This document shows, piece by piece, positions 14,201-32,741 of a stretch of DNA of 64,000 nucleotides. Below the pieces are notes generated by a model. The model was not told the origin of the DNA. It did no database searches and saw only the letters and a program-made list of their open reading frames with translations. Origin of the DNA: Streptomyces sclerotialus. GTDB taxonomy: Bacteria > Actinomycetota > Actinomycetes > Streptomycetales > Streptomycetaceae. A program made the translations under genes and the position numbers. The DNA is taken from the NCBI GenBank assembly GCA_000719105.1, contig JODX01000007.1:1-64000 (forward strand), given 5' to 3'. How positions within the stretch are numbered: position 1 is the first letter of the stretch; every line of letters begins with the position of its first letter.

Positions 14201-14784
14201 GGGACGAGGGAACCGTCGAGGTCCTCCTCCGCGAGGGCGACCGACTCGGCCACCCAGTCCATGGACATGACGCCCATGTACACGCCGCCGTTCCCGTGAC
14301 GCAGGCCGGTGGGGTCGATATTGGCGTCCTCCAGCGCCCGCCAGGAGGTCTCCAGGACCAGTCGCTGCTGCGGGTCGATGTACGGAGCCTCTTTGGGGGA
14401 TATCTTGAAGAACTTCGCGTCGAAGAGGTCGAGCCCGTCGAGGAAATTTCCGTCCGCCGCTGCCTGTCCGAGGCCGTTTCCGGCGCTTCCGCCGTTCCTG
14501 CTGTTCTCGCTGTTCCCGTCCTTCCCCTCGTTTCCGGGAACCCAGCGGTCGGTGGGTGCCGGCCCCTCGGCGGACCGTCCTTCGCGCAGGAACTCGGCGA
14601 ATTCCTCCGGGGTCTCACTGCCGCCGGGAAAACGCAGTCCCACACCGATGACGGCGATGGGCTCGTTCTTCTCCAGCAGCAGCCGGTCGATGGTCCGCCG
14701 CTGTTCGCGTACGGTGTCCAGCGCCGCCCGGAGCCGGCTGGCGACGTCCGTGGTGACGTCCATGGGGACGGACGGGTCCGACAT
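8206..14784 (-). CDS. Highly reducing single-module type I polyketide synthase
   Basis: 2192 aa. Domains in order: a short helical docking segment (12-38); KS (40-475) with Cys223, His358, His398; AT (598-880) with Ser692 in GHSVGE and the malonyl-type HAFH motif at 791-794; DH (968-1250) with His1014 and Asp1180; a structural KR half; ER (about 1510-1825) with the NADPH motif HAAAGGVG at 1649-1656; KR (1840-2070) with GGLGGLG and Tyr1988; ACP with Ser2148. There is no methyltransferase or thioesterase domain. One complete reductive loop and no further modules suggest iterative use, giving a saturated unbranched chain. The KS carries an extra Asn/Gly-rich loop at 84-112. Release probably depends on the separate reductase or thioesterases. 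AGGAG precedes ATG 14784. Confidence 0.93.
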   Translation of the reverse strand: MSDPSVPMDVTTDVASRLRAALDTVREQRRTIDRLLLEKNEPIAVIGVGLRFPGGSETPEEFAEFLREGRSAEGPAPTDRWVPGNEGKDGNSENSRNGGSAGNGLGQAAADGNFLDGLDLFDAKFFKISPKEAPYIDPQQRLVLETSWRALEDANIDPTGLRHGNGGVYMGVMSMDWVAESVALAEEDLDGSLVPGSAHSAVAGRLSYFLGLRGPCISVDTACSSSLTAAHLAAQGLRRRECDIALCGGVNAVHHPLIQSILTKARMLGSDGRCKTFDESADGYSRGEGCGVLVLKRLSDAERDGDRVLGLLRGSAVRADGESAGLTAPNGIAQEAVMRAAIADAGLEPGDIQYVEAHGTGTPLGDPVELGSISDTFAGSHSRDRPVVVGSVKTNVGHLESAAGVCGIVKVLLQMREETVYPHLNLTSPSARIPWDSCPVTVPAKCAPWTGERPRRALVNSFGIAGTLGCVVVEEAPAPARAPAPAAGDGAAGSGEGGGDGRGGGLGGDAHLFTLSAKSTGSLRRQVARYRAYLSGHPEVRLADLCRTAAVGRAHFPLRLAGVVRDRDGLERLLSRALERGTGDSGAGDSGAGGGIPKVAFLFTGQGSQYPGMGRALYEQHPAFREQLDDCDRLFAPHLGRSVRDLVLGRAADPDAIHRTQYTQPALFSLEYALARLWLSWGVRPNVLLGHSVGEIAAAAVAGVFPLEDAVTLVAARARLMQSVTAPGGMAQVSAPADTVAPLLAGHPDLTVACVNAPEQCVVSGGLRALGAVCTALRESGVEVRELAVSHAFHSPLMDEVTGAFRDALKDIRFRDPRVTVVSNLTGRVARPGEMATPDYWVRQLRGTVDFAGGVRTVGGRGRHAFVEIGPTGTLSSLARRCLTPGDHLWPGGPHPSDTDGTTVLKALARLYTAGLPVSWSGFHRGAVTRPVTLPVYPFDRKPYWLPVPRGRDRGTASGGGPVAVAEVRHHPLLGEEVTPSGHTEVTFSGQARDGVREFATLLDAAHPGYLADHVVMGQVVLPGTAYLEMLLALQDAVYGHTRRPVEDVRILEPVFLAAGDRPVQVLTRLRPGDDGTASVEIVTRVEGRDGTFERRHATAVLGVEPPPGEPRTPADVAEEPGAVVESDELYARMSAVGVDYGPEFRRLRRAQRHGGEVAVGELRGIRTGAGEHLPPALSDSAMHALAVLDDGGEPCLPVRFGRLRLFKKPTSARLRAVARIVPVPTETSTEASTEVDVRADLVLLEGDRPVCELTGIGLKRVAAHAPAPARHLFHEPRWVKRSLAVQAAQAAREPRRVLVLGRTEQELRALTARAPEAGVELTFAAGADAVTEALRTWRPTDVCWFWRAGECARDHHGLRAECEHNYRDLLAVLGALEKAGFGGGHGGGQRLWLVTEGAHLLGDDVPSGTGPSPAATLWGFGQALWHEYPGYRVTLVDLPATDATNIPEGSGAPGGDPAPPLLREWLAGDSGEFQVAWRAGHRHVRRLFPSAPAGARDANVRLAVKEYGLLSGIRPEPAEDVPPVGDRIRIAVHAAGLNFKDVLNALGLLKSHAEASGLTYRPQPLGLECAGTVLAAGPDAAFRPGDEVVVNAMGCMTRRLTVSSRLAVRKPAGTTMAEAAGIPTVFVTAYYALHDLARIKKGDRVLVHAAAGGVGQAAVQLARQAGAEVFATASPGKWPLLRSQGIRHLMNSRTLDFADEVLAATGGRGVDIVLNSLNKDFIAAGMRCLAEGGRFVEMGKVGTWSPERARRERPDVTYHRFDLSELPEGEARRRTREILQPVLQQIADGRLRPVTTTAYALEEAEEAFSVLSRGANVGKLVLRLTDDSPRPARPLTVRPDRTYLVTGGLGGLGLVTARKLAGLGARHLVLTGRGTGRPEDAPPPRLGEDVEVTVVRADIAEPADVDRLAAELKRSPYPLGGIVHAAGVLADMPVSALTWESVDTVLRPKVYGTRLLHEAAASFPELDFFVGYSSVASVLGGPAQANYAAGNAYLDASLLWRAARGLPALAVNWGPWAEVGMSARLSAPLAENLRRQGVAFMRPEEGMRALVTLLGQSAPQVVAAACDWDRYANGKALVHSLYRHLLRGGGGAGRPRLDVGALAALPPKERRASLNTFLRAKTAEVLRFDDPDDVEPDAVFLDLGLDSLAAVELKNALESALGVPLPASAAFDHPSVGRLTGYLDQLLSGEV

Positions 14785-15296: not shown

Positions 15297-15325
15297 ACTG
15301 ACAGGCCGCTGACATTCCGCTGACC
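15297..15325 (-). promoter_or_regulatory. Putative SARP operator: three heptamers, 11-bp period
   Basis: On the minus strand: GGTCAGC, TGTCAGC and TGTCAGT, each separated by 4 bases (heptamers at 15325-15319, 15314-15308 and 15303-15297). Direct heptamers with an 11-bp pitch are the known binding pattern of Streptomyces SARP activators. The same TGTCAGC core recurs at 23614 and 26491. I cannot assign a clean -10 on either side, so which direction is activated is uncertain. Confidence 0.65.
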
Positions 15326-18718: not shown

Positions 18719-19870
18719 ATGCCCCGCGTGCGCTCACTGGACTCGGCCCGCGCGACGTGCGAGCACTACCATCCGGGCCTCGGCAAGGCCCTGGAGGAGA
18801 CCGACCTCGTGGAGCGGGAGGCTCCTGGCGGCCCGGTGATCGAGCTGTTCCGCGAGCACGGCGGCCCCGCGCTGCTGGTGCCCCCCGGCTTCGGCGGCCG
18901 GGGCGCCGGCCTCGTGGACGCCGTCCGCGTGCTGCGCGCCGTCGGCTCGTACTCCCCGTCCCTCGCCGCCGCCGCGACCATGCACCACTTCACGGCGGCG
19001 ATGCTCTTCTCGCTGGACGACCGCGACGGCGGGCTCACCGCCGCGCAGCGCGCCCTGCTGCGCGGCATCGTCCCCGGGCGGAAGCTGATGGCGTCGGGCT
19101 GGGCCGAGGGCCGCACCCGGCAGAACGTCCTCACCCCGGCGGTCTCCGCACGGCCGGTGGACGGCGGCTACCTCCTCAACGGCAGCAAGAAGCCGTGCAG
19201 CCTGTCCCGCTCGATGGACCTGCTCACCGCGAGCGTCGCCGTCCCGGACGCCGGGGGGCGGCCGGAGCTGGCGATCGCGCTGGTCCCCGCGGACACCCCC
19301 GGCATCACCGTGCACCCCTTCTGGAGCAACGGCGCGCTCGCCGCGGCGGAGAGCGACGAGGTCCGCCTCACGAACGTGTTCGTCCCCGGCGACCTGGTGA
19401 TACGCACCACCGCCGGGGACCCGGACCGGCTGTCGGAGCTGCAGAGCACCGGGTTCGTCTGGTTCGAGCTGCTGATCTCCGCCGGCTACGCGGGTGCGGC
19501 GGCCGCCCTGGTGCAGCGGGTGCTCGACGGCGGCCGGGGCGCCGTCACGGACCGGGCCGCACTCGCGGTGCGGGCCGAGTCGGCCCACCTCCTGCTGGAG
19601 GGGGTGGCCCGCGCGGTCGGCGACGGCGACCTGGCGGGCGAGGAGGCGGTGGCCGCCGCGCTCATGGCCCGGTACGCGGCCCAGGACGCCCTGTGCGGCG
19701 CCGCCGACCTCGCCTTGGAACTGCTCGGCGGGATGGACTTCATCCGTTCCCCGGAGGGCGCCCTGCTCGCGGCCTCCGTCCGGCCGCTGGCCTTCCACCC
19801 GCCCTCCCGCACCAGTACCGCCGAGCCGCTCGTGGACTATCTCGGAGGGAACCCTCTCGCCCTTGCCTGA
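18719..19870 (+). CDS. Acyl-CoA-dehydrogenase-fold flavoprotein, candidate amine N-hydroxylase (VlmH-like)
   Basis: 383 aa. ATG 18719 has a site that is too close; GTG 18728, with AAGGG 9 bases before it, is a good alternative start. The fold is that of acyl-CoA dehydrogenases and group D flavin monooxygenases: PPGFGGRGAGLVDAVRVLRAVG, YLLNGSKKPCSLSRSMD, and an all-helical C-terminus with LALELLGGMDFI. In valanimycin the isobutylamine N-hydroxylase VlmH is of this class and uses reduced flavin from a separate reductase. In this setting it is the best candidate for hydroxylating the fatty amine. No flavin reductase is visible nearby. The alternative is a true dehydrogenase that makes an alpha,beta-double bond. 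Confidence 0.7.
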   Translation: MPRVRSLDSARATCEHYHPGLGKALEETDLVEREAPGGPVIELFREHGGPALLVPPGFGGRGAGLVDAVRVLRAVGSYSPSLAAAATMHHFTAAMLFSLDDRDGGLTAAQRALLRGIVPGRKLMASGWAEGRTRQNVLTPAVSARPVDGGYLLNGSKKPCSLSRSMDLLTASVAVPDAGGRPELAIALVPADTPGITVHPFWSNGALAAAESDEVRLTNVFVPGDLVIRTTAGDPDRLSELQSTGFVWFELLISAGYAGAAAALVQRVLDGGRGAVTDRAALAVRAESAHLLLEGVARAVGDGDLAGEEAVAAALMARYAAQDALCGAADLALELLGGMDFIRSPEGALLAASVRPLAFHPPSRTSTAEPLVDYLGGNPLALA

Positions 19871-21561: not shown

Positions 21562-22410
21562 ATGGCAGAAGGCCGGACAGTCGAATTCCGTATTCTCGGT
21601 GGTCTGGAAATGGTCTCCCCGGTGGGCAGCGCCACGGTGTCCGGTGGCCTTCAGCGCGTCCTCCTCCAGACCCTGCTGGCGAGCGAGGGGAAGGCCGTCT
21701 CCGGTGAGACGCTGATGGCCGAACTGTGGGGGGAGGCGCCGCCGGAGGGGGCGGCCAACGCTCTCCAGGCCCACGCGAGCCGGATCCGCAAGAAGATCAG
21801 GCAGCTCGAGCCGCGCCGCGCACACTCCCGTGTCGTCTGTCTCCCGCACGGCTACCAGCTGCGCATGGACGGCGCCGAACTGGACGCCACGGTGTTCGTG
21901 GGGTACGCCGCCCGGGCCGAGCGGATGCGGGCGGAGGCCCCCGCGGAGGCGGTCGGCCTGTTGCGCCGCGCGCTCGGGCTGTGGCGCGGGGCCGTCTACG
22001 GCGGAAGCCCGGGCGGACCCCTCTGCAAGGCGGCCGCCACCCGGTACGAGGAGCACCGGCTGCAGGCCCTTGAGCTGCTGTTCGACAGCGAACTGCTGCT
22101 GGGCCGGCACACCGCGGTCCTCGCGGAACTGCGCGAGGCCCATATGAGCGACCCCCTGCGGGAGCGGTTCTGCGAACAGCTGATGATCGCGCTCTACCGC
22201 TCGGGCCGTCAGGCCGAGGCGCTGGGCGTCTACCGGCAGACGTGGCGCCGCCTCAACGAGCAGCTAGGGGTCGACCCCTCGCCCTTTCTGCGCCGTCTGG
22301 AGCACGGCATCCTGATCCAGGACGCGGCGCTGGACCGGGGACCGGTGCCGGCCGCGCACGTCGTCGCCGGTGGTGTCCCGGCGCTCCGGCCGCTGCCCAC
22401 GCGGAAGTGA
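21562..22410 (+). CDS. SARP-family transcriptional activator 1
   Basis: 282 aa. ATG 21562 lies after GGTGGCGG, a weak site. It has an OmpR-type winged helix at about 7-100 (VEFRILGGLEMVS, TLMAELWGEAPPEGAANALQAHASRIRKK-like region, VCLPHGYQL) and a bacterial transcriptional activation domain at about 107-255 ending in LNEQLGVDPSPFLRRLE. This is the small AfsR/DnrI-type form without an ATPase domain. Such proteins bind 11-bp-spaced heptamers and recruit RNA polymerase to pathway genes. Three matching sites occur in this cluster. Valanimycin's VlmI is also a SARP. Confidence 0.9.
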   Translation: MAEGRTVEFRILGGLEMVSPVGSATVSGGLQRVLLQTLLASEGKAVSGETLMAELWGEAPPEGAANALQAHASRIRKKIRQLEPRRAHSRVVCLPHGYQLRMDGAELDATVFVGYAARAERMRAEAPAEAVGLLRRALGLWRGAVYGGSPGGPLCKAAATRYEEHRLQALELLFDSELLLGRHTAVLAELREAHMSDPLRERFCEQLMIALYRSGRQAEALGVYRQTWRRLNEQLGVDPSPFLRRLEHGILIQDAALDRGPVPAAHVVAGGVPALRPLPTRK

Positions 22411-22507: not shown

Positions 22508-23506
22508 TCACAGCGCGTTGGAGACGCGGAGGACGTGCAGGAAGGACCGCAGGGAGGCGTGTCCGTGGAAGGCGATGTACTCCGGGGTCACCACGTCCGG
22601 CCCCCACTTCTCCTTGTAGGCGAGCTGGCTGCGCGCGGGGTAGACGGATCCGCCGTGCTCCCACAGCGCGTGCGTCAGCCACCGGAACACGGGGCTGTGT
22701 CCGGGAACCTCGTGCCGTGGGTCCAGGCCGGTGAAGGGCGTGAAGCCGAAGTGCAGCCAGCGGACGCCCTCCTCGCGGAAGACCTCGATCGCGTGGCTGT
22801 TGATCGCCTCCGCCACCCCCGGCGGCCCGTCCGGCCGGCGGCGGCTGAGGTCGTGCAGCCACCCGGCCCGTGCCCCGAACACCGGTGAGTACGAGATGTA
22901 ACCGGCCGGCCGGTCGCCGATCAGGCCGACGAACAGCCTGCGGTGCCGTTGTGCGGCACCACCGCGCTGCCCCACCAGGAACTCCAGGGGCTTGGCGTGT
23001 TTCCCCTTGGCCGCCAGCCAGACGGCGTCCAGCTCCCGCATCGCCCCGCTCCACTCCTCCGCACCGGCCTCCCGCACGGTGAGCCCGCTGCGCAGCGACC
23101 GGGAGATCTTGTTGCGCAGCCGCATGAAACGGGTGCCGCGCAACGAGAACCCGGCCAGATCCAGAGCGTAGGAGGCGCCGATCTGGTTGACGGTGAAGCC
23201 GTGCTCCGCGTACCGCTCGGCGTCGGCGCGCTGGAGCTGGACGGCGACCAGGCGCAGCCGCCGGGACCGCGCGTGGGCGACGAACTGCTCCAGCAGGCGC
23301 TCATAGTCCTCCTGGGGTGCGAAGGGGCCGCCGAACTGCACCAGGCGGCGCCCCGACCGCCGGTGGACGGCCAGCCCCTTCGCCGAAGGCGAGGTGAAAT
23401 AACTGTTCCCCTCGTTGAGCGCCAGAAAGGCGCTCGGATTGTCGGACAGCGTGTAGGTGCTGATGGCTTCGAAAGCGGATACCTCCGATATCGGACCGGC
23501 GGTCAT
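22508..23506 (-). CDS. MprF/DUF2156-like aminoacyl-tRNA transferase, VlmA-like
   Basis: 332 aa. ATG 23506 is preceded by GGAGGTGAGGAGAG. The sequence matches the twin-GNAT C-terminal domain of lysyl-phosphatidylglycerol synthases (MprF). It starts FEAISTYTLSDNPSAFLALNEGNSYFTS-like; further on it has GLAVHRRSGRRLVQFGGPFAP and GYISYSPVFGARAGWLHDLSRRR, and ends with the conserved FGFTPFTGLD and YPARSQLAYKEKWGP block. There are no transmembrane helices, so it is a soluble version. In valanimycin, VlmA moves serine from seryl-tRNA to the hydroxylamine oxygen. Together with VlmB, VlmJ, VlmK and VlmO relatives and the tRNA-like gene next door, serine transfer to a long-chain hydroxylamine is the likely job. 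No paired seryl-tRNA synthetase gene is present. Confidence 0.75.
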   Translation of the reverse strand: MTAGPISEVSAFEAISTYTLSDNPSAFLALNEGNSYFTSPSAKGLAVHRRSGRRLVQFGGPFAPQEDYERLLEQFVAHARSRRLRLVAVQLQRADAERYAEHGFTVNQIGASYALDLAGFSLRGTRFMRLRNKISRSLRSGLTVREAGAEEWSGAMRELDAVWLAAKGKHAKPLEFLVGQRGGAAQRHRRLFVGLIGDRPAGYISYSPVFGARAGWLHDLSRRRPDGPPGVAEAINSHAIEVFREEGVRWLHFGFTPFTGLDPRHEVPGHSPVFRWLTHALWEHGGSVYPARSQLAYKEKWGPDVVTPEYIAFHGHASLRSFLHVLRVSNAL

Positions 23507-23613: not shown

Positions 23614-23657
23614 CGTCAGCGCACTGTCAGGGAATTGTCAGCGGGAGGGTGCATTCT
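23614..23657 (+). promoter_or_regulatory. SARP-type promoter driving the tRNA-like gene
   Basis: Three direct heptamers at an 11-bp pitch: CGTCAGC (23614-23620), TGTCAGG (23625-23631) and TGTCAGC (23636-23642). Nine bases after the last is CATTCT (23652-23657), a plausible -10. Known SARP promoters place the final repeat about 8 bases before the -10, replacing a normal -35. This gives a start site about 65 bases before the tRNA 5' end and would also transcribe the kinase gene. Confidence 0.7.
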
Positions 23658-23728: not shown

Positions 23729-23820
23729 GGAGAGGTACCCGCAGCGGCCCAACGGGGTCCGGGCGCGTCCCGGACGGGTCTTCACGGCCCGCGCAGGTTC
23801 GAATCCTGCCCTCTCCGCCA
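23729..23820 (+). tRNA. Serine-type (class II) tRNA with a non-decoding anticodon arm
   Basis: A 92-nt complete cloverleaf. Acceptor GGAGAGG (23729-23735) pairs 7/7 with CCTCTCC (23810-23816). D stem CCCG/CGGG has the GG pair kept in its loop (23746-23747). The anticodon arm is TCCGG-GCGCGTC-CCGGA (23758-23774). The long variable arm at 23775-23791 has a 6-pair stem. T stem GCAGG/CCTGC encloses loop TTCGAAT. Discriminator G is at 23817 and CCA is encoded. The acceptor, G73 and long variable arm are typical of serine tRNA. The 7-base anticodon loop lacks the nearly universal T33 (C instead), has T at 37, and can close further by a G32-C38 pair. The formal anticodon would be GCG, not a serine one. 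I infer a serine-accepting tRNA unfit for translation. It lies between the VlmA-like and VlmJ-like genes, behind a SARP-type promoter. Confidence 0.82.
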
Positions 23821-23865: not shown

Positions 23866-24840
23866 ATGCCGTACCCGGCCGTACCGGCCTGTCCCGCGCC
23901 GACACGCGCCCTGATCGTGGTCAACCCCGCGGCCGGCGGCCACCGCGCCGATCTGGTCGAGCGCCTGGCCTCCCTGTGCCGCGAGCGTCTCGCGTCGGTG
24001 GCCGTGCTCCGTACGACCGGCCCCGGGGACGCCGTCGACGCGGTCCACCGCGCGGTGGCCAAGGGGCCCGTGGAGCACCGCCCCGACCTCGTCGTCGCGG
24101 CCGGCGGCGACGGCACCGTCCGTGAGGCCGCCGAGGGGCTGGTACGGCAGGGTGGCGAGGGCCGCGGGGATGCCGCCCTGCTCATCGTCCCCTGGGGCAG
24201 CGCCAACTCCGGCTACCGCATGTTCTGGGACGACCGGCCGTGGTACGACGCGGTGTCCATGGTGCTCGAACCCGGACGGGCCGAGGTCCGGCGCATGGAC
24301 CTCGCCCGGCTCGCGGAGACCGGTGACCACGTGCTGCTGGGCTCCTGCACCGGCCTGGGCGCGCAGATCCTCCCGGCCCTCGCGGCGGTGCCCGTCGGCC
24401 CCAGGGGGCGCGAACGCTATGCGCGGGCCCTGGCCGCCGCGGCGGCGGACTTCCGCCCCTACCCGGGCCGGGTGACCGTCGACGGCACCGTCCTGGCCGA
24501 GGGCCCCACCGTCCTGGCCAACGTCGGCGGCGGGCGCTACCGCGCCGGGCAGTATCTGCTGCTGCCCCACTCCCGGCCGGACGACGGGCTGCTGGACGTC
24601 TGCGTCATCGGCGGCCGGACCGACCCGGCACGGGTGCCGGAGCTGACCCGGCACGCCGGCCACCTCGGCGAGCCGGGAACGGCGTACGGCCGCGGACGCC
24701 GCGTCGTCGTCGAGCGGCTCGACGGCGAGGGGCTGGTCCTGGAACACGACGGCGAGCCGCGGGACGGCATCGGGAGCACGGCCACCTTCGACGTGGTGCC
24801 GGGCGCTCTGCCGGTCTGGACGGCCCCGGCGGGGCGCTGA
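23866..24840 (+). CDS. Diacylglycerol-kinase-fold kinase, VlmJ-like
   Basis: 324 aa. ATG 23866 with CCAGGAG 5 bases upstream, 45 bases after the tRNA 3' end. The DAGK/NAD-kinase fold is shown by ALIVVNPAAGGHRADLVERL, the nucleotide motif GGDGTVREAAEG (80-91) and WGSANSGYRMF. In valanimycin, VlmJ phosphorylates the hydroxyl of valanimycin hydrate, the serine-derived side chain, so that VlmK can eliminate phosphate. The next gene is a VlmK-like protein, which supports the same role here. A generic lipid kinase is the alternative. Confidence 0.8.
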   Translation: MPYPAVPACPAPTRALIVVNPAAGGHRADLVERLASLCRERLASVAVLRTTGPGDAVDAVHRAVAKGPVEHRPDLVVAAGGDGTVREAAEGLVRQGGEGRGDAALLIVPWGSANSGYRMFWDDRPWYDAVSMVLEPGRAEVRRMDLARLAETGDHVLLGSCTGLGAQILPALAAVPVGPRGRERYARALAAAAADFRPYPGRVTVDGTVLAEGPTVLANVGGGRYRAGQYLLLPHSRPDDGLLDVCVIGGRTDPARVPELTRHAGHLGEPGTAYGRGRRVVVERLDGEGLVLEHDGEPRDGIGSTATFDVVPGALPVWTAPAGR

Positions 24841-24967: not shown

Positions 24968-26581
24968 ATGGCCACCCTGCTCGGAGAGCTCGGCGCGTGG
25001 GCCGCGCGGCTCACACCCGAAGCGATCCCCGGACGGGTGCTCCGCCGGGCCGCCAGTCAGGTGCTGTCCCAGCTCGGGGCGATCCGCGCCGGGGCCGGAC
25101 ATCGCCTCGGCCGCCGGCTGACCGCCGCCTTCGGGCCGCCGCTGCAGCCCGATCCGCGCCGGTCGGCCTGCGTGCTGGCCGGGCTCGGCTCCTGGCTCAA
25201 CCTCGACGACACCGCGTACGCGGGCCACCTGTCCAACTCCACCGTCGCGGTGCCCCTCGCCTTCGCACACGCCCGGCGGCTGGACGGTCCGGCACTGCTC
25301 ACCGCGGTGGTGGCGGCCAACGAGTGCGCCGCCCGCGTCACCGCCGCGGCGACGCTGGGCCCGCTGCGCGGCCAGACCGCGCTGCACGCGCACCTCGCGG
25401 GCGCCGTCGCCGGGCGGCTCAGCTGCGAGGGAGTTCCGCCCGCCCGCTGGCCGGACGCGCTCGGTCTGGCGTACGCGCAGCCGCCGTGGCCGCTGATGCG
25501 GGCCTTCCTGGCCGGCGACGCCCGGCTGCTGAACACCCTCGGGCCGGTGCGTACGGCGATGGACGCGTGCGACGCGGCCGCCGCCGGACTCGCCGGCCCG
25601 CACGACCTGCTGGAGCACCCGGACGGCTTCCTGCGCCGCTTCGCGACCGTCCCGCTGCCCGAGGCGGTCACCGCGGGGCTGGGAACGCGCTGGCACACCG
25701 AGACCTTCTCGTACAAACTGCACCCGGGCGGGCCCGGGATCGACGCCGCCGTCGACTGCGCCATGGCCCTCCACGACGACCTGGGCGCCCCGGACGCGGC
25801 CGAGCTCGCCGACGACATCACCGAGGTGCTCGTGGAGGCGTCGCTGTACACCCTCCTCGCGGCCCGGCGCGCGCACCCCTATCTCGGCGGGACCGCACGG
25901 CCCCTGGGCGCACTGGTGCTGGACGTCGGCTATCCCGTGGCCACCGCGCTGCTGACCGGGCGGCTGACCGTGGCCGACCTGGACCCTCCGGCCTCGGACG
26001 ACCCGGTGCGCCGGGCCGTGGCCGCCCGGGTCCGGCTGGTGCACGACACCGGCATGACCCGCGCGCTCCTGGCCTCCTGCGCACCGTTCGGCGAGGCGCT
26101 GCGGCAGGCGGGCCCCGCCGGTGCCGCGTGGCTGCGGGAGTTCGGCGGTGACGCGCTCGCCGGGCTGGCGGGCGAACCGCTGCCTCCCGCCGCGGACTTC
26201 ACCGACGCCGTCAAGGCCACCGGCGCCCGGGTGTCGGTCCGTCTCACCGGCGGCCGCTGCGCGGTACGGGAGCTGATGGTCCCGCACGGCGCCGCGGGTC
26301 CGCACACCCGGGCCCGGCACGCCGCCCTCGTCGGGCAGAAGTTCCGTGCGCTCGGCGGCCCCGCCGACGTCGCCGACGCGCTGGTGCGGGTGCCCCGGAT
26401 GGACGGCGCCGAGCTCCGCGCGTGGATCGAGGCGGCGCTGCGGCCCGGCCCGCCGCGCACGGAACAGGCAGCTGTCACGGATCAGGCGGCCGTCAGCGAT
26501 CCGTCAGGGGCCTGTGACAGCGTGGGGGCGCCCGCCCCCTTCCCACCGCGCGCCGCCGACATCGAGGAGCAACGCCTGTGA
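24968..26581 (+). CDS. MmgE/PrpD-family protein, VlmK-like dehydratase
   Basis: 537 aa. ATG 24968 follows GAGGGAGGA. The helical MmgE/PrpD fold is recognisable from LGSWLNLDDTAYAGHLSNS (substrate-site region), AANECAARVTAAATLGPLRGQ and TRWHTETFSYKLHPGG. The 2-methylcitrate dehydratase family includes VlmK, which removes phosphate from phosphorylated valanimycin hydrate to create the acrylate double bond. It follows the VlmJ-like kinase. Its last codons overlap the aminotransferase start (GTGA), and its 3' end contains a SARP-like operator, so an internal promoter for the next operon is likely. Confidence 0.82.
   Translation: MATLLGELGAWAARLTPEAIPGRVLRRAASQVLSQLGAIRAGAGHRLGRRLTAAFGPPLQPDPRRSACVLAGLGSWLNLDDTAYAGHLSNSTVAVPLAFAHARRLDGPALLTAVVAANECAARVTAAATLGPLRGQTALHAHLAGAVAGRLSCEGVPPARWPDALGLAYAQPPWPLMRAFLAGDARLLNTLGPVRTAMDACDAAAAGLAGPHDLLEHPDGFLRRFATVPLPEAVTAGLGTRWHTETFSYKLHPGGPGIDAAVDCAMALHDDLGAPDAAELADDITEVLVEASLYTLLAARRAHPYLGGTARPLGALVLDVGYPVATALLTGRLTVADLDPPASDDPVRRAVAARVRLVHDTGMTRALLASCAPFGEALRQAGPAGAAWLREFGGDALAGLAGEPLPPAADFTDAVKATGARVSVRLTGGRCAVRELMVPHGAAGPHTRARHAALVGQKFRALGGPADVADALVRVPRMDGAELRAWIEAALRPGPPRTEQAAVTDQAAVSDPSGACDSVGAPAPFPPRAADIEEQRL
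26480..26519 (+). promoter_or_regulatory. Putative SARP operator inside 3' end of VlmK-like gene
   Basis: Heptamers at an 11-bp pitch: GATCAGG (26480), CGTCAGC (26491), CGTCAGG (26502) and TGTGACA (26513). The middle two match the consensus seen at 15297 and 23614. It lies about 60-100 bases before the aminotransferase start. No clear -10 is visible in this GC-rich stretch. Confidence 0.55.
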
Positions 26582-27918
26582 GCGCTCCGACGGACACCGG
26601 ACCGGACACGGAACAGGACACGGAACAGGAAACGGAACAGGAAACGGAACAGGAAACGGAACAGGAAACACTCCGGACTCTCCGCCTCTACCGGGCCCAC
26701 GTCAGCAAGGGCCGGGCGACCGTGGCCGAGCTGTTCGGCGGCCGCATGGAGGTCGCCTCCTCGGGCGCCTGGCTGACCACGAGCGACGGCGAGCGGTACC
26801 TCAACTGCGGCGGCTACGGCGTGTTCCTCATGGGCGCGCGGCACCCGCTCGTCATGGAGGAGGTCCGCCGCCAGCTCGGCACCCACCCCGTCGCCACCCG
26901 CCTCCTGCTCGAACCGGCCGTCGCCCGCGCCGCCGAGACACTGGTGTCGGTGACCCCGCCGGGGCTGGACCGCGTGCACTTCTCGCTCTCCGGCGCCGAG
27001 GCGGTCGAGACAGCGCTCAAGCTGGCCCGCGCCCAGGGCCGGCGGAAGGTGGTCGCCATGCACATGGGCTACCACGGCAAGACGCTGGGCGCCCTGTCGG
27101 CCACCGGCAAGGACGTGTTCCAGCGGCCGTTCCGTCCCCTGCTGCCCGATGTGACGCACCTGCCCTACGGGGACGCCGAGGCGCTGGAGAAGGAGCTCGC
27201 CGAACGGCCCGGCGAGGCCTGCGTGATCGTCGAACCGGTCCAGGGCGAGGGCGGCGTGGTCATCCCGCCGGACGGCTATCTGCGGCGGGTCGGCGAACTC
27301 TGCCGCGCCCACGGCGCGTTCTTCGTCCTGGACGAGGTGCAGACCGGCATGGGCCGCCTGGGCACCTGGTGGGGAGCCGACGCCGAAGGCGTGGTCCCGG
27401 ACGTGCTGCTCGCGGGCAAGGCGCTGGGCGGGGGAGTGGTCCCGGTCTCCGCCGCGATCGCCACGCGCGAGGCGTTCCGGCCGTTCGACAAGGACCCCTA
27501 CCTCCACACCGGGACGTTCTCCGGAGCCCCGCTCCTCATGGCCGCCGTCCAGGGCGCCGTCCGCGCGGTACGCGAGGAGGACCTCACCACCCGGGCGGCG
27601 GAGCTCGGCGCCACGCTGCTGCCGCGCATCGCGGAGATCGCCCGCGGCAACATCCCCGAGTTGCTCGCCGGGGTACGGGGCCGGGGCCTGCTCATCGGCG
27701 TGGAGCTGATCGAGGCCGGGCTCGCGGGGGAGCTGCTGATCGAACTGTTCAACCACCGCGTGGTGGCCAACCACTCGATGAACGGCAGCACCGTGGTGCG
27801 GTTCACCCCGCCCGCGGTCCTCACCGACGCGGACGTCGACTTCTTCCTGCACGCCTTCGACGGGGCCACCCGCGCCCTGGTCGAGAACGCCACACGCGCC
27901 CCGGAAGGCCGGAGGTGA
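26578..27918 (+). CDS. Class III PLP-dependent aminotransferase
   Basis: 446 aa. GTG 26578 overlaps the upstream stop as GTGA, with GAGGAGC 8 bases upstream. The fold-type I motifs are present: FSLSGAEAVETALKLAR, YHGKTLGALS, Asp252 in VLDEVQTG, and the PLP lysine Lys281 in LLAGKALGGG. Residues 11-31 are a TEQE repeat encoded by 12-bp units, which is unusual for the family. It should convert an aldehyde to an amine or the reverse. In context it probably aminates the fatty aldehyde from the reductase at 16972, replacing the valine decarboxylase (VlmD) that supplies isobutylamine in valanimycin. Confidence 0.88.
   Translation: MSAPTDTGPDTEQDTEQETEQETEQETEQETLRTLRLYRAHVSKGRATVAELFGGRMEVASSGAWLTTSDGERYLNCGGYGVFLMGARHPLVMEEVRRQLGTHPVATRLLLEPAVARAAETLVSVTPPGLDRVHFSLSGAEAVETALKLARAQGRRKVVAMHMGYHGKTLGALSATGKDVFQRPFRPLLPDVTHLPYGDAEALEKELAERPGEACVIVEPVQGEGGVVIPPDGYLRRVGELCRAHGAFFVLDEVQTGMGRLGTWWGADAEGVVPDVLLAGKALGGGVVPVSAAIATREAFRPFDKDPYLHTGTFSGAPLLMAAVQGAVRAVREEDLTTRAAELGATLLPRIAEIARGNIPELLAGVRGRGLLIGVELIEAGLAGELLIELFNHRVVANHSMNGSTVVRFTPPAVLTDADVDFFLHAFDGATRALVENATRAPEGRR
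26608..26670. repeat. 12-bp tandem array (GAAACGGAACAG) at aminotransferase N-terminus
   Basis: About five copies of a 12-bp unit (GACACGGAACAG or GAAACGGAACAG) in frame, encoding Thr-Glu-Gln-Glu repeats. Confidence 0.88.
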
Positions 27919-28534: not shown

Positions 28535-29062
28535 ATGGACCAGGCCAACCCGTTCGAGACCCGTACCACCTTCCGCCTGCACCGGGCCGAGTACCTGGTC
28601 GGCCTCGCGGTCTGCGCCGGGCTCATGATCGCCCACGCCGGCGAGATCCGCTGGCCCGTGGCGCTCGCCCTGTTCGCGTACATCGACCTCATCGGCTACA
28701 TCCCCGGGGCCATCGCCTACCGGCGCAGCGGCGACGGCAGGATTCCCAAGGTCTACTACGTGCTCTACAACACGATGCACAGCCTGATCACACAGGGGGC
28801 CGTGGCCGCACTGTGGTGCTGGCTCGTGGGCCCCGAATGGGCCCTGCTGGCGCTGCCGCTCCATCTGTGCGCTGACCGGGGACTGTTCGGGAACTTCCTG
28901 AAGCCGTTCGCGCTGCGCTTCGAGCCCGAGGCCGAGCCGGGCTACCGGCGGCTGACCGACGGGCTGCGCGGCCGTGCGGCCGGACGCAGGGTCCCCGTAC
29001 CCGTCACCGCCCCCGCCCCCGTGCCCGCGGCCGGTCAGGCCGGCTCAGGGCCCAAGGGGTAG
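28535..29062 (+). CDS. Small integral membrane protein, VlmO-like (candidate N-N bond-forming enzyme)
   Basis: 175 aa. ATG 28535 follows GGGAGGAGCG. There are four likely membrane segments: about 20-36, 42-60, 84-100 and 103-118. Polar and charged residues sit between them, including HRAEY, HAGEIRW, YNTMHS and HLCADRG. The last 35 residues are Pro/Ala-rich. In valanimycin, the membrane protein VlmO converts the O-seryl hydroxylamine to the hydrazine. The size, membrane topology and position just before the VlmB-like gene support a VlmO counterpart. I could not compare sequences directly, so homology is inferred from context and hydropathy. Confidence 0.6.
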   Translation: MDQANPFETRTTFRLHRAEYLVGLAVCAGLMIAHAGEIRWPVALALFAYIDLIGYIPGAIAYRRSGDGRIPKVYYVLYNTMHSLITQGAVAALWCWLVGPEWALLALPLHLCADRGLFGNFLKPFALRFEPEAEPGYRRLTDGLRGRAAGRRVPVPVTAPAPVPAAGQAGSGPKG

Positions 29063-29114: not shown

Positions 29115-30176
29115 ATGACCGACACCGTAGAACCCGTGTCACCGGAGGCGGACTGGGAGACCGCTCCGGGGCTCCTCGACGGGGCGAAGACCCTCGACCT
29201 CACCGCCGAGCGGTGCGACCTGGCGTACTGGCTCCGCCATGTGGCGCAGGGGACCCTGCACGGCCGCGCCGTCACCGGGCACGCCGAGGAGGCCCGCACA
29301 CCGGAGTTCATGAAGCGGCCCGGCCCGCTGCGCGAGGCGCTCGTCCTCGAACTGGGCTTCCGGTCGCTGGCCGAGGAGACGGCCACCCGGGCCCTCGGCC
29401 ATTACGTGGCCCAGGCCCCGGGCGTGGCGGAGATGGAGTTCTACGCCACCCAGCTCCTGGACGAGGCACGCCACGCCCGGGTGTTCCGCGAGCACCTCGT
29501 GGAACTGGGCATGCCCGCGCGGACGCTGCTGAGCGACATCCGCGAGAGGGCCGCCGACTACCGGTCCCGGGTCCTTCGCCCGCTGGAGGAGTTCACGCTG
29601 GACATCGTGCGGGACCGGGCCGACTTCGCCGGCGGCGTGGCCATCCTCACCATCGTCATCGAGGGCGTCCTCGCGCCCGCCGCCGAGCTGAGCGAACGCA
29701 AGTGGACCCCGCTGGACCCGGCGGCCGGAGAGGTGTCCCGGGGCGCGGCGATCGACGAGATCCGCCACCTGGCCGTCGGCAGTTCGGTGCTGCGCGACCA
29801 CCTCGCCGCGCACCCGGAGTACCGGCCGCGGCTGCTGGAGATCCTGCGCGCCGGGCGGAAGCTGTGGGACGAACTGCCCGACCGGGAGTTCGTCATCGCC
29901 CGCGAGGAGCTCTTCCAGAAGGGCATGCTGCAACACGCCGACAAGGTCGGCGACTACGAGATCTGGCCGGGCCGGCGCCTGCTCGACACCACACCGGAAG
30001 AGCGCTACGACACGGCCGCGCGCTGGACGGACGAGATGGCCGGGGTGCGCCTGGCCCACATGGGCCTTGAGGAGGCCGTAGCCGTGCTCGGCGTACAGAC
30101 CGCCTCCGAGGAGCGGGCCGTGTCCGAGGGGCGGGCCGTGTCCGAGGGGCGGGCCGTCTCCCAGGGGCGGAAGTGA
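29115..30176 (+). CDS. Ferritin-like diiron oxygenase, VlmB-like (azoxy formation)
   Basis: 353 aa. ATG 29115 follows GGAGGAG. The iron ligands have the classic helical-bundle spacing: Glu87/88 (LAEET), Glu117-x2-His120 (DEARH), Glu183 (VIEG) and Glu215-x2-His218 (DEIRH). VlmB is a non-heme diiron enzyme that oxidises the seryl hydrazine by four electrons to the azoxy group. This is the obvious counterpart, just after the VlmO-like gene. The C-terminus ends in three near-identical SEGRAV units encoded by an 18-bp repeat. The following KS gene starts inside its stop (GTGA). Confidence 0.8.
   Translation: MTDTVEPVSPEADWETAPGLLDGAKTLDLTAERCDLAYWLRHVAQGTLHGRAVTGHAEEARTPEFMKRPGPLREALVLELGFRSLAEETATRALGHYVAQAPGVAEMEFYATQLLDEARHARVFREHLVELGMPARTLLSDIRERAADYRSRVLRPLEEFTLDIVRDRADFAGGVAILTIVIEGVLAPAAELSERKWTPLDPAAGEVSRGAAIDEIRHLAVGSSVLRDHLAAHPEYRPRLLEILRAGRKLWDELPDREFVIAREELFQKGMLQHADKVGDYEIWPGRRLLDTTPEERYDTAARWTDEMAGVRLAHMGLEEAVAVLGVQTASEERAVSEGRAVSEGRAVSQGRK
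30112..30172. repeat. 18-bp tandem array at diiron gene 3' end
   Basis: About three copies of GCCGTGTCCGAGGGGCGG, in frame, encode the C-terminal RAVSEG repeats of the diiron protein. Confidence 0.88.
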
Positions 30177-31228
30177 GGAGTCCGGCGACGGGCGGCGGCG
30201 CCCCGTCCCGTACCGGCCTGCCCGCAGTCCCCCGCAGCGCGGTCGTCATGGGGGTCGGCGGCTGGCTGCCGCCCGATGTGGTGACCAACGACGACCTGGC
30301 CGCCCGCCTGGACACCTCGGACGCGTGGATCCGTACCCGTACCGGCATCGCACGGCGTCATGTGGCCGGGCGAGGCACGGCCGTATCGGATCTCGCCGTG
30401 GAGGCGGGCCGCAGGGCGCTGGCCTCCGCGGGCGGTCCCGCGGTGGACGCGGTCGTCCTCGCCACCATGACGCCGGACCACCCGGTCCCGGCCACCGCGC
30501 CGGTCGTCGCCGCCCGTCTGGGACTGGACGGCGTTCCGGCGTTCGACCTCGCCGCGGCCTGCGCGGGGTTCGTCTACGGGCTCGCCACCGCCGCCGGGCT
30601 GATCGCCGCCTCGGTCGCCGAGCGGGTGCTGGTGATCGGTGCCGAGGTGCTCACCGGCATCGTCGATCCGCGGGACCGTTCCCTGGCGGTCCTGTTGGCC
30701 GACGGGGCCGGGGCGGTGGTGCTGCGGGCGGGGCACGACGAACCGGGCGCGCTCGGCCCCGTCGTCCTGGGCAGCGACGGTGCGCGCGACGACCTGCTGT
30801 ACATCCCCGGCGGTGGCTCCCGCGCGCGTGCGGGCGGCCTCCCGGCCGGGACGGGCGGGGAGTTCCTGCGGATGCGCGGCCGGGAGATCTTCCGCAACGC
30901 GGTGGAGCGGATGGCGGAGTCCTCGCACCGCGCCCTGGAAGCCGCGGGCTGGAAGACCGGCGACGTGGACCGTCTGGTGGCGCACCAGGCCAACGCCCGC
31001 ATCCTGGCCGCCCTCGGCGACGAGCTGGACATCCCCGCGGACCGGCGGCCCGCCACCATCGAGCACACGGGCAACACCGCCTCCGCCTCCATCCCCCTGC
31101 TGCTGGCCGAGACCGTCGCGGACGGACGGCTGAGGCCCGGCCACCGCGTCCTGATCACGGCTTTCGGCGGCGGGCTGGCGTGGGGCGCGACCACCTTGGT
31201 GTGGCCGGAACTGCCCGCCGGGCACTGA
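30173..31228 (+). CDS. Beta-ketoacyl-ACP synthase III (FabH-like)
   Basis: 351 aa from GTG 30173, which overlaps the diiron stop. The conserved part begins at AVVMGVGGWLPP (Met26), so a later start is possible. The thiolase fold triad is complete: Cys130 in LAAACAGFVYG, His in VAHQANARI and Asn in HTGNTASAS. KSIII enzymes condense an acyl-CoA starter with malonyl-ACP. With the ACP and FabF-like genes directly after it, it may make or extend a short acyl starter, separately from the type I PKS, or set chain length. Confidence 0.88.
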   Translation: MRSPATGGGAPSRTGLPAVPRSAVVMGVGGWLPPDVVTNDDLAARLDTSDAWIRTRTGIARRHVAGRGTAVSDLAVEAGRRALASAGGPAVDAVVLATMTPDHPVPATAPVVAARLGLDGVPAFDLAAACAGFVYGLATAAGLIAASVAERVLVIGAEVLTGIVDPRDRSLAVLLADGAGAVVLRAGHDEPGALGPVVLGSDGARDDLLYIPGGGSRARAGGLPAGTGGEFLRMRGREIFRNAVERMAESSHRALEAAGWKTGDVDRLVAHQANARILAALGDELDIPADRRPATIEHTGNTASASIPLLLAETVADGRLRPGHRVLITAFGGGLAWGATTLVWPELPAGH

Positions 31229-31290
31229 GGAGTTCCCTCTCCATCCCTCTTCGGTCCACCACTCACCGTCACTTCCCGTAAGGACGAGCC

Positions 31291-31521
31291 ATGTTCGAGC
31301 AGCTGAAAGACATCCTCGCGCGCAAGCTCCATGTGCCGGCCGACTCGATCACCATGGAGGCCACCCCCCAGGACATCGAGCTGGACTCCCTGGCCGTCGT
31401 CGAGCTCTCCCTCGTGCTCGACAAGGAGCTCGGCATCCGGATCAGCGACGACGAGATGGCCGGGGCCGGGACCGTCGGCGACATCGTCCGGCTCATGGAG
31501 GCGCGGGGGGCGGCGCTCTGA
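31291..31521 (+). CDS. Discrete acyl carrier protein 2
   Basis: 76 aa. ATG 31291 with AAGGA upstream. Ser33 in DIELDSLAVVELSLVLDKELG is the phosphopantetheine site. It is acidic and helical, with the usual ACP length. It sits between KSIII and KSII genes, and its TGA overlaps the next ATG (TGATG). Confidence 0.92.
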   Translation: MFEQLKDILARKLHVPADSITMEATPQDIELDSLAVVELSLVLDKELGIRISDDEMAGAGTVGDIVRLMEARGAAL

Positions 31522-32741
31522 TGCCCCGCTGCGACGCGGCCGTCACCGGTGTCGGGCTCGTCACCCCGGCGGGCATCGGTGTCGAGGAGAACTGGGAGAC
31601 CGTCTGCGCGCCCAAGCCCGCCGCCGCCCTGGACCCGGAGCTGGAGGGCGCTCCGGTACGGATGTCCTGCCGCGTGCCCGGCTTCGACCCGGCCCAGCGG
31701 CTGGGCGCCCGCCGGGCCCACCGCCTCGACCGCTTCGTCCAGCTGGCGCTGGTGGCCGCCCGCGAGGCGCTCGCCGACGCCGGCCTGGATCCGGCGTCCT
31801 GGGACGGCAGCAGGGTGGGCGTGGTGCTCGGCTGCGGTGACGGCGGCACCGCGACCCGGGAGCACGCGCACCGGGTGCTGCTGGAGGAGGGGGCGCGCTG
31901 GGTCTCGCCGCTGGTGCACCCCATGGCACTGTCCAACATGCTGGCGGGCCAGCTGTCGATCGAGTTCGGGGCGAGGGGCCCCAGCCTGGTGGTCACCACC
32001 GCCTGCGCCTCCGGGGCGACCGCCGTCGGCGTGGCCCGGGACCAGCTGTCCCTCGGCCGCTGCGACATCGTGCTGACGGGCGCGAGCGACGCCCTGGTGA
32101 CGCCCTTCCAGGTGGCCGGCTACGCCCGGACGGGAGCCCTCTCCCGGCGGCACGACGACCCGGCCGGCGCGTCCCGCCCGTTCGACGCCGACCGTGACGG
32201 CTTCGTCATCGGTGAAGGGGCGGGCCTGCTGGTGCTGGAGCGGCCGGAGCACGCACGGGCCCGCGGGGCGCGCGTACGGGCCCGCGTCGTCGGCCACGGT
32301 GCCACCGCGGACGCCCACCATGTGACGGCGCCGCACCCCGAGGGACGCGGGATCGAGGCCGCGCTGCGCGCCGCGCTCGCCGACGCCGGGGCGTCCCCGC
32401 GCGACGTGGCACACGTCAACGCCCACGGCACCGGGACGCCGCTGAACGACCTGGTCGAGGCGGCGGCGGTGCACCGGGTCCTGCCGCACGCCCCCCTGGT
32501 GACCTCGACCAAGGGAGTCACCGGGCATCTGCTCGGCGCGGCGGGAGCGGTCGAGGCCGTGTACACCGTGCTCGCGGTGGAGCGCGGACTGGTGCCCCCG
32601 ACCGCCAACCTCGACCGTCCGGACCCCCGGGTGGAACTCGACGTCGCCTCCGTCCCCACCCGCCGCCGGATCGGCCTGGCGCTCACGAACTCCCTCGGCT
32701 TCGGCGGCCAGAACGCCGTCCTGGCCGTGGCCGCCGCATGA
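31521..32741 (+). CDS. Beta-ketoacyl-ACP synthase II (FabF-like)
   Basis: 406 aa. ATG 31521 shares one base with the ACP stop. It has Cys162 in TTACASGA, His in NAHGTGTPLND, and the Lys/His segment KGVTGHLLGAAG. All catalytic residues are intact, so it should be an active elongating KS rather than a chain-length factor. No chain-length-factor partner is present. With KSIII and ACP it forms a minimal type II set, lacking its own ketoreductase, dehydratase or enoyl reductase. It may borrow primary-metabolism enzymes. It is the last gene of the operon starting at 26578. Confidence 0.9.
   Translation: MPRCDAAVTGVGLVTPAGIGVEENWETVCAPKPAAALDPELEGAPVRMSCRVPGFDPAQRLGARRAHRLDRFVQLALVAAREALADAGLDPASWDGSRVGVVLGCGDGGTATREHAHRVLLEEGARWVSPLVHPMALSNMLAGQLSIEFGARGPSLVVTTACASGATAVGVARDQLSLGRCDIVLTGASDALVTPFQVAGYARTGALSRRHDDPAGASRPFDADRDGFVIGEGAGLLVLERPEHARARGARVRARVVGHGATADAHHVTAPHPEGRGIEAALRAALADAGASPRDVAHVNAHGTGTPLNDLVEAAAVHRVLPHAPLVTSTKGVTGHLLGAAGAVEAVYTVLAVERGLVPPTANLDRPDPRVELDVASVPTRRRIGLALTNSLGFGGQNAVLAVAAA

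Follow-up and report, generated by a model that had tools for sequence, protein, structure and literature searches.

Gene content of the cluster

The window, which is the whole stretch of 64 kb from Streptomyces sclerotialus analyzed here, contains a biosynthetic gene cluster, predicted to make an azoxy compound, with a tRNA-like RNA gene at 23729–23820 (+). Divergently from this gene, on the minus strand at 22508–23506, lies a gene for a VlmA-like aminoacyl-tRNA-dependent transferase. Its product matches Pfam LPG_synthase_C with 209 bits, which places it in that fold family, and its relatives in the PDB are aminoacyl-phosphatidylglycerol synthases. A VlmJ-like kinase with the Pfam domains DAGK_cat and YegS_C is encoded at 23866–24840 (+), 45 nt 3' of the RNA gene, followed by a VlmK-like MmgE/PrpD protein (24968–26581 (+), Pfam) and a class III aminotransferase (26578–27918 (+), Pfam and NCBIfam).

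Three further products are named with less certainty. The protein encoded at 28535–29062 (+), in which neither a Pfam nor an NCBIfam family was found, is probably VlmO-like, a name taken from its place and size. The product of 29115–30176 (+), whose match to an R2-like NCBIfam model is far below the cut-off, is a probable VlmB-like diiron oxidase, and the acyl-CoA-dehydrogenase-like protein encoded at 18719–19870 (+), with a Pfam match just below the cut-off, is a probable VlmH-like N-hydroxylase. All three recur in VlmA clusters. A SARP-family regulator with BTAD and Trans_reg_C domains in Pfam, and an NCBIfam AfsR/SARP match below the cut-off, is encoded at 21562–22410 (+). The same cluster includes a large reducing-type PKS gene (8206–14784 (−)) and ketosynthase/ACP genes (30173–32741), which together suggest a polyketide-derived alkyl chain.

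A tRNA(Ser)-like RNA with a rewritten anticodon arm

The 92-nt RNA at 23729–23820 (+) is the single tRNA called by ARAGORN in the window, where it is labeled Arg(gcg). Read from the sequence, it is a class II tRNA with G73 and an encoded CCA. The acceptor stem (23729–23735/23810–23816) pairs at 7/7 positions and is followed by T8 and A9, the D stem (23738–23741/23753–23756) pairs at 4/4 with GG present in the D loop, and the T stem pairs at 5/5 around the loop TTCGAAT. The long variable arm (23775–23791 (+)) consists of a 6-bp stem (23775–23780/23786–23791, paired at 6/6 with one G–T included) and a 5-nt loop. The first-pass annotation had described every class II arm as intact, and both our reading and the ARAGORN call bear this out. 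At the anticodon position, a hairpin (23758–23774 (+)) with a 5-bp stem (23758–23762/23770–23774, paired at 5/5) carries the loop GCGCGTC (23763–23769), with G32, C33, T37, and C38. The missing T33, the T at 37, and a possible 32–38 pair had likewise been pointed out from the letters alone; in the minimum free energy (MFE) fold 32–38 and also 26–44 are paired, which extends the arm to a 7-bp hairpin with a 5-nt loop.

With elongator tRNA(Ser) the RNA shares the class II fold, its acceptor, D, variable, and T arms being intact, as well as G1–C72, G2–C71, G73, and the long variable arm. What the loop GCGCGTC lacks is the T33 of a decoding arm and a serine anticodon. The RNA stays below every Rfam gathering score, that of RF00005 (tRNA) included, and a genome-wide RF00005 search, with 69 matches, does not list it. 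At relaxed thresholds its sole tRNA-type match is tRNA-Sec (RF01852) at 31.2 bits, where the gathering score is 47, and on these scores tRNA-Sec was rejected.

In comparison with S. fumigatiscleroticus (L181), the tRNA is identical at 91/92 positions. The 45 nt downstream are conserved like the tRNA itself (44/46), and the upstream 222 nt align at 173/233 columns.

A gene family with conserved stems

A DNA search of 100 relatives revealed full-length copies in five further genomes, and in two of these the number of matches is eight or nine. For a wider search, of the kind proposed in the first-pass annotation, we used a covariance model, R1, built from 16 sequences picked by DNA similarity and not by their gene neighbors. 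R1 assigns 89.8 bits to the window RNA, which reaches no Rfam gathering score, and recovers 182 copies in the fetched loci (batches of 24, 83, 3, and 72). These represent 147 distinct sequences, since some genes were reached through two loci. In the last batch 72 of 74 rows were kept; an L216 row of 52 bits and the L197 copy, which is truncated by the contig, were dropped.

The acceptor stem is paired at 7/7 positions in 144 of the 147 distinct copies, the D stem at 4/4 in 143, and the T stem at 5/5 in 144. G2–C71 is present in all 147, A3–T70, G73, and C11–G24 in 146 each, and G1–C72 in 145. The recurrence of full-length relatives with the same intact arms in many genomes argues that the window RNA is more than a chance resemblance. 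The first-pass annotation would have given up its reading had the sequence been absent or degenerate in all related clusters; the stems are paired in nearly every copy.

Across the family, neither the length nor the sequence of the anticodon-position arm is constant, yet it folds as a hairpin. Only two of the 147 distinct copies have an in-register anticodon arm (at least 4/5 pairs) with T33. A liberal test with a sliding register finds T33 in 18/147 and T33 together with a purine at 37 in 6/147, whereas eight of eight class II control tRNAs pass; ten of 23 additional copies, parsed later, also pass the liberal test. MFE loops of 4 nt are the commonest (82 copies), followed by loops of 5 nt (33), 3 nt (26), and 6–8 nt (6); these sizes are only indicative, as two of the four own tRNA(Ser) controls came out misfolded with these settings. 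Annotation tools label the copies as Arg, Leu, Ala, Ser, Asp, or unknown tRNA, or miss them, which would account for the family having been overlooked.

Features linking the RNA to serine

Serine identity is described as independent of the anticodon and as resting on the long variable arm, the main identity element in other organisms, with contributions from G1–C72, G2–C71, and G73 (PMC9976931, available text). The earlier statement that seryl-tRNA synthetase (SerRS) reads the variable arm and acceptor, not the anticodon, agrees with this source, and the elements concerned are kept family-wide. SerRS genes occur in 28/81 VlmA loci and vlmJ in 18/81, and one SerRS was confirmed by Pfam. The 64-kb window itself contains no SerRS match, while a VlmL-type synthetase is present in other clusters of the family. 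In the genus sample described below, SerRS, vlmJ, or prpD is found near the cluster in 32/51 RNA-bearing compared with 2/31 RNA-less VlmA genomes, a count that leans on fetched loci and in which weak vlmJ matches may represent other lipid kinases.

Co-occurrence with VlmA

Among 392 Streptomyces genomes, the RNA (R1 score of at least 65 bits) is found in 51 and a VlmA homolog (profile search, E ≤ 1e-30) in 82. VlmA is present in 51/51 RNA-bearing genomes and in 31/341 others (Fisher 1e-42, uncorrected for phylogeny), so that every RNA-bearing genome shows the co-occurrence with a tRNA-dependent transferase that characterizes a non-translating donor tRNA. The genus scan scored ten candidates per genome, and full copy counts were taken from a search with 150 scored. 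In total, 147 of the 392 genomes match R1 at E ≤ 1e-4, and in 96 of these no match reaches 65 bits (best 55.0 among the matches listed). Matches below 65 bits were taken as ordinary tRNAs; the five checked are four tRNA-Tyr and one tRNA-Ser. In two RNA-bearing genomes, G207 (C51) and G339 (C1), the match to VlmA falls in two reading frames, and the gene is perhaps frameshifted or mis-assembled.

A class-wide sample of 394 genomes, which overlaps the genus sample in a few genomes, was also analyzed. Here, 50 of 55 matching genomes score 54–67 bits, and one that was checked is a tRNA-Ser(tga). As 65 bits fails to separate the family outside Streptomyces, a 70-bit cut-off was applied there. Nine genomes have VlmA at E ≤ 1e-50, and they include all five with the RNA at 70 bits or more.

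At the level of loci, 52 of the 80 named VlmA loci analyzed, which are the best of 115, have a copy within 10 kb, so the search of other vlm-like clusters suggested by the first-pass annotation does find the same gene there. The loci with a nearby copy include seven genera outside Streptomyces, namely Salinispora, Micromonospora, Actinomadura, Sphaerisporangium, Microbispora, Kitasatospora, and Actinacidiphila, and the RNA accompanies VlmA also in Actinokineospora and Parafrankia. Among 62 loci listed, 17 have a divergent vlmA no more than 500 nt away, and in 12 the RNA gene is followed by vlmJ at a distance of up to 200 nt. We searched ten genomes with a VlmA locus devoid of a copy within 10 kb (11 such loci), and eight of the ten have copies farther away: 15 in S. 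griseofuscus, nine in Streptomyces sp. BK340, four and seven in Actinokineospora, and, in four other such genomes, copies on the VlmA contig at a distance of 14–25 kb. The extra copies of these genomes are the same kind of sequence. In the other two, S. niger and Actinophytocola xanthii, the search yielded zero copies in the genome.

Tandem arrays and dispersed copies

Several loci contain tandem arrays of two to four copies, with four in S. fragilis, and arrays of three or four genes separated by short spacers are present in L187, L208, L211, L097, and L338. Other genomes contain 8–15 dispersed copies. In S. griseofuscus (G431, L343–L345), 14 of the 15 copies are chromosomal and none of these is more than 743 kb from a chromosome end; some are mirrored in the terminal repeats and are therefore not independent. 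The unit shared in G033 and G003 comprises about 190 nt, including the repeats described below and the tRNA, and stops at the tRNA 3' end. The dispersed set of S. griseofuscus is possibly an amplification of a 190-nt unit. One family copy in Streptomyces sp. BK340 (L347) is degenerate, with a broken 5' acceptor half.

No recurrent neighbor gene of the dispersed copies was found. A Pfam analysis of ten of their neighbors revealed no integrase, transposase, or tRNA-dependent enzyme, and two of the ten match no family. An empty-site test for mobility, with one query in 41 genomes, returned no syntenic empty site. An exclusively local supply of the RNA to the adjacent cluster was rejected as a full account, because the VlmA loci of G033, G185, G156, and G341 (fetched to 20 kb, in G185 to 11.8 kb) are devoid of a copy while others are found elsewhere. 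Local supply does not account for the many dispersed copies of some genomes.

VlmA clusters without the RNA

The genus sample includes 31 VlmA genomes without the RNA. Clusters of the window type, with vlmJ and prpD, were found in S. boncukensis, S. violens, and S. niger, with no copy in cluster or genome, and the RNA is therefore dispensable there. In the first two (L140, L141), the GTCAG repeats are kept in the gap between vlmA and vlmJ and the tRNA is cleanly absent, the intergenic space measuring about 240 nt or less, compared with 360 in the window.

On the VlmA tree, the presence of the RNA requires 11 changes, compared with 24 in shuffles. A branch holding S. rochei (12 tree rows) has no copy within its loci. 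This branch may be of the KA57-A type; the S. rochei strain on the tree is not the KA57-A producer 7434AN4. G342 has a second VlmA gene, of the S. rochei type, and close to it ARAGORN calls a tRNA-Pro(cgg) of 83 nt whose anticodon is oddly placed (L162:14083–14165).

Upstream repeats and putative SARP control

Upstream of the RNA gene, at 23615–23641 (+), are three GTCAG units with the 11-nt spacing of SARP/OmpR-type repeats, followed by a possible −10 element, TGCATTCT, at 23650–23657 (+). These repeats would serve the tRNA and probably vlmJ. The pattern NTCAG-N6-NTCAG occurs within 200 nt upstream of 124/131 independent copies, mostly starting 70–90 nt away, as opposed to 6/131 downstream and 8/2620 in shuffles. 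Over the whole window the repeat pattern, with one mismatch allowed, is mildly enriched (11 compared with 6.3 expected; 4 of 100 shuffles are as high). Further GTCAG repeats with 11-nt spacing are observed at 15298–15324 (−), close to where the minus-strand PKS operon starts, and at 26481–26507 (+), before the aminotransferase gene.

The type of repeat, along with the SARP genes in the clusters, suggests that the RNA gene is under SARP control and points to the repeats as predicted regulator-binding sites. In the valanimycin cluster, VlmI is named a SARP in the title of a reference cited by a 2014 review (PMC4052509, available text).

Discussion

The best explanation for these observations, which we consider quite likely, is that the RNA serves VlmA as a dedicated seryl donor that does not decode. 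The first-pass annotation had proposed such a donor from the single window copy, and the proposal gains from the co-occurrence in 51/51 genomes, the serine-identity features that are kept and the decoding features that are lost across the family, the SerRS genes in 28/81 loci, and the SARP-type repeats. In the mechanism we envisage, SerRS would charge the RNA with serine, which is to be expected since serine identity lies in the variable arm, the acceptor stem, and G73, all of which are kept, and not in the anticodon; given the conservation of these elements, serylation is likely. The RNA would then pass the seryl group to the adjoining VlmA-type transferase, a step suggested by the co-occurrence with VlmA and by the known role of this enzyme (PMC12945691, PMC11705231, PMC9379638, as far as their available text describes it). 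VlmA would move this group onto an alkyl hydroxylamine, from which the N–N bond of an azoxy product derives. An RNA that cannot read a codon would reserve its seryl group for the pathway, away from the ribosome, an exclusion for which the changes in the anticodon loop are suggestive. Finally, the GTCAG repeats would switch the RNA on together with the cluster via the SARP regulator.

The many dispersed copies of some genomes, the copies that pass the liberal T33 test, and the cellular pool supposed for azodyrecin count against the donor reading. Such a donor may raise flux or protect translation and need not be essential, since sister clusters and 31 VlmA genomes are without the RNA and VlmA has been reported to work with Ser-tRNA(Ser). 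The same absence from some Ser-type clusters, and the same published use of Ser-tRNA(Ser) in the parts of that literature available, could be read differently: VlmA would use the ordinary Ser-tRNA(Ser), and the RNA would be a regulator or decoy, a sensor or sponge for SerRS or the serine supply, with dispersed copies able to act in trans. We regard this as unlikely, because a decoy needs neither a fully kept acceptor end, G73, and D and T arms across actinobacterial families nor tandem arrays right beside vlmA.

Less probable still is a selfish or hitch-hiking repeat, whether a pseudo-tRNA or a tRNA-derived element of the SINE type, that was amplified in some genomes. Genomes with as many as 15 dispersed copies that have no recurrent neighbors, a common unit of about 190 nt that ends with the tRNA 3' end, and the degenerate copy L347 would suit such an element; it would not be expected to have VlmA in all 51 RNA-bearing genomes, to lie inside the azoxy cluster at most single-genome sites, to keep its stems paired in almost every copy, or to have ten neighbors of dispersed copies without an integrase or transposase. 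That the gene encodes an ordinary decoding tRNA-Arg(GCG), as the ARAGORN label and the 5-bp stem with a 7-nt loop in the window copy would have it, is hardly credible: this copy has no T33, its G32 and C38 can pair, the loops of its relatives range from 3 to 8 nt under unlike labels, and the acceptor end and variable arm are of the serine type.

A seryl donor of this kind would have a counterpart in the staphylococcal cell-wall tRNA(Gly), a non-translating tRNA that donates its amino acid to a tRNA-dependent transferase and thus acts outside the ribosome. The staphylococcal system differs in amino acid and pathway, and its tRNA keeps a glycine anticodon and escapes translation by other means, whereas the anticodon arm of the window RNA is rewritten. 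tRNA(Sec), the best Rfam resemblance of the window RNA, is also a class II tRNA that is charged with serine and has a use of its own; the window RNA, in contrast, has no TCA anticodon and combines a 7-bp acceptor stem with a 5-bp T stem. The tRNA(Other) of Bacillus cereus, a bacterial pseudo-tRNA, is likewise tRNA-shaped and not expected to decode, a likeness drawn by description. We know of no link between pseudo-tRNAs of this type and biosynthetic clusters.

The closest pathway is the VlmA/VlmL route of valanimycin, which has in common with the window a VlmA-type transferase, a VlmJ-like kinase, a VlmK-like PrpD protein, and a SARP regulator. Valanimycin has a SerRS, VlmL (PMC9379638, PMC4052509, available text), as do some clusters of the family, whereas the window has none. 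Descriptions of the valanimycin route, on which our comparison is based, speak of Ser-tRNA(Ser) or of the cellular pool and, in the text available, name no tRNA gene. VlmA has been characterized with Ser-tRNA(Ser) according to a 2026 review of aminoacyl-tRNA enzymes, which implies that ordinary tRNA(Ser) can serve; in the accessible portion of this review we found no mention of a tRNA gene, a dedicated tRNA, or a pseudo-tRNA. For azodyrecin, whose cluster has no synthetase gene, alanyl-tRNA was supposed in 2022 to come from the cellular pool (PMC9379638, available text). Like the first-pass annotation, which knew of no such tRNA in azoxy clusters, our literature search found no description of one in the sources within its reach, from which most subscription papers, the original valanimycin ones included, are excluded.

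On balance, we think it more likely than not that these RNAs constitute a new family of private seryl carriers for secondary metabolism, which would split serine between the ribosome and the azoxy pathway. Once released from decoding, their anticodon arms would have become plain hairpins, and in certain streptomycetes their genes would have multiplied into arrays under SARP control and into scattered regulons with as many as 15 members, largely in chromosome arms. The RNA would be a marker for azoxy clusters, as every RNA-bearing genome of the genus sample has VlmA, and if our reading is correct, it would be the first natural-product tRNA known to us. How Ser-tRNA(Ser) is diverted from translation was called unknown by the 2014 review (PMC4052509, available text). 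A non-decoding carrier belonging to the pathway would be a direct answer to how the seryl-tRNA is kept apart from translation, and would bring this question within reach of an experiment that needs one RNA and two enzymes.
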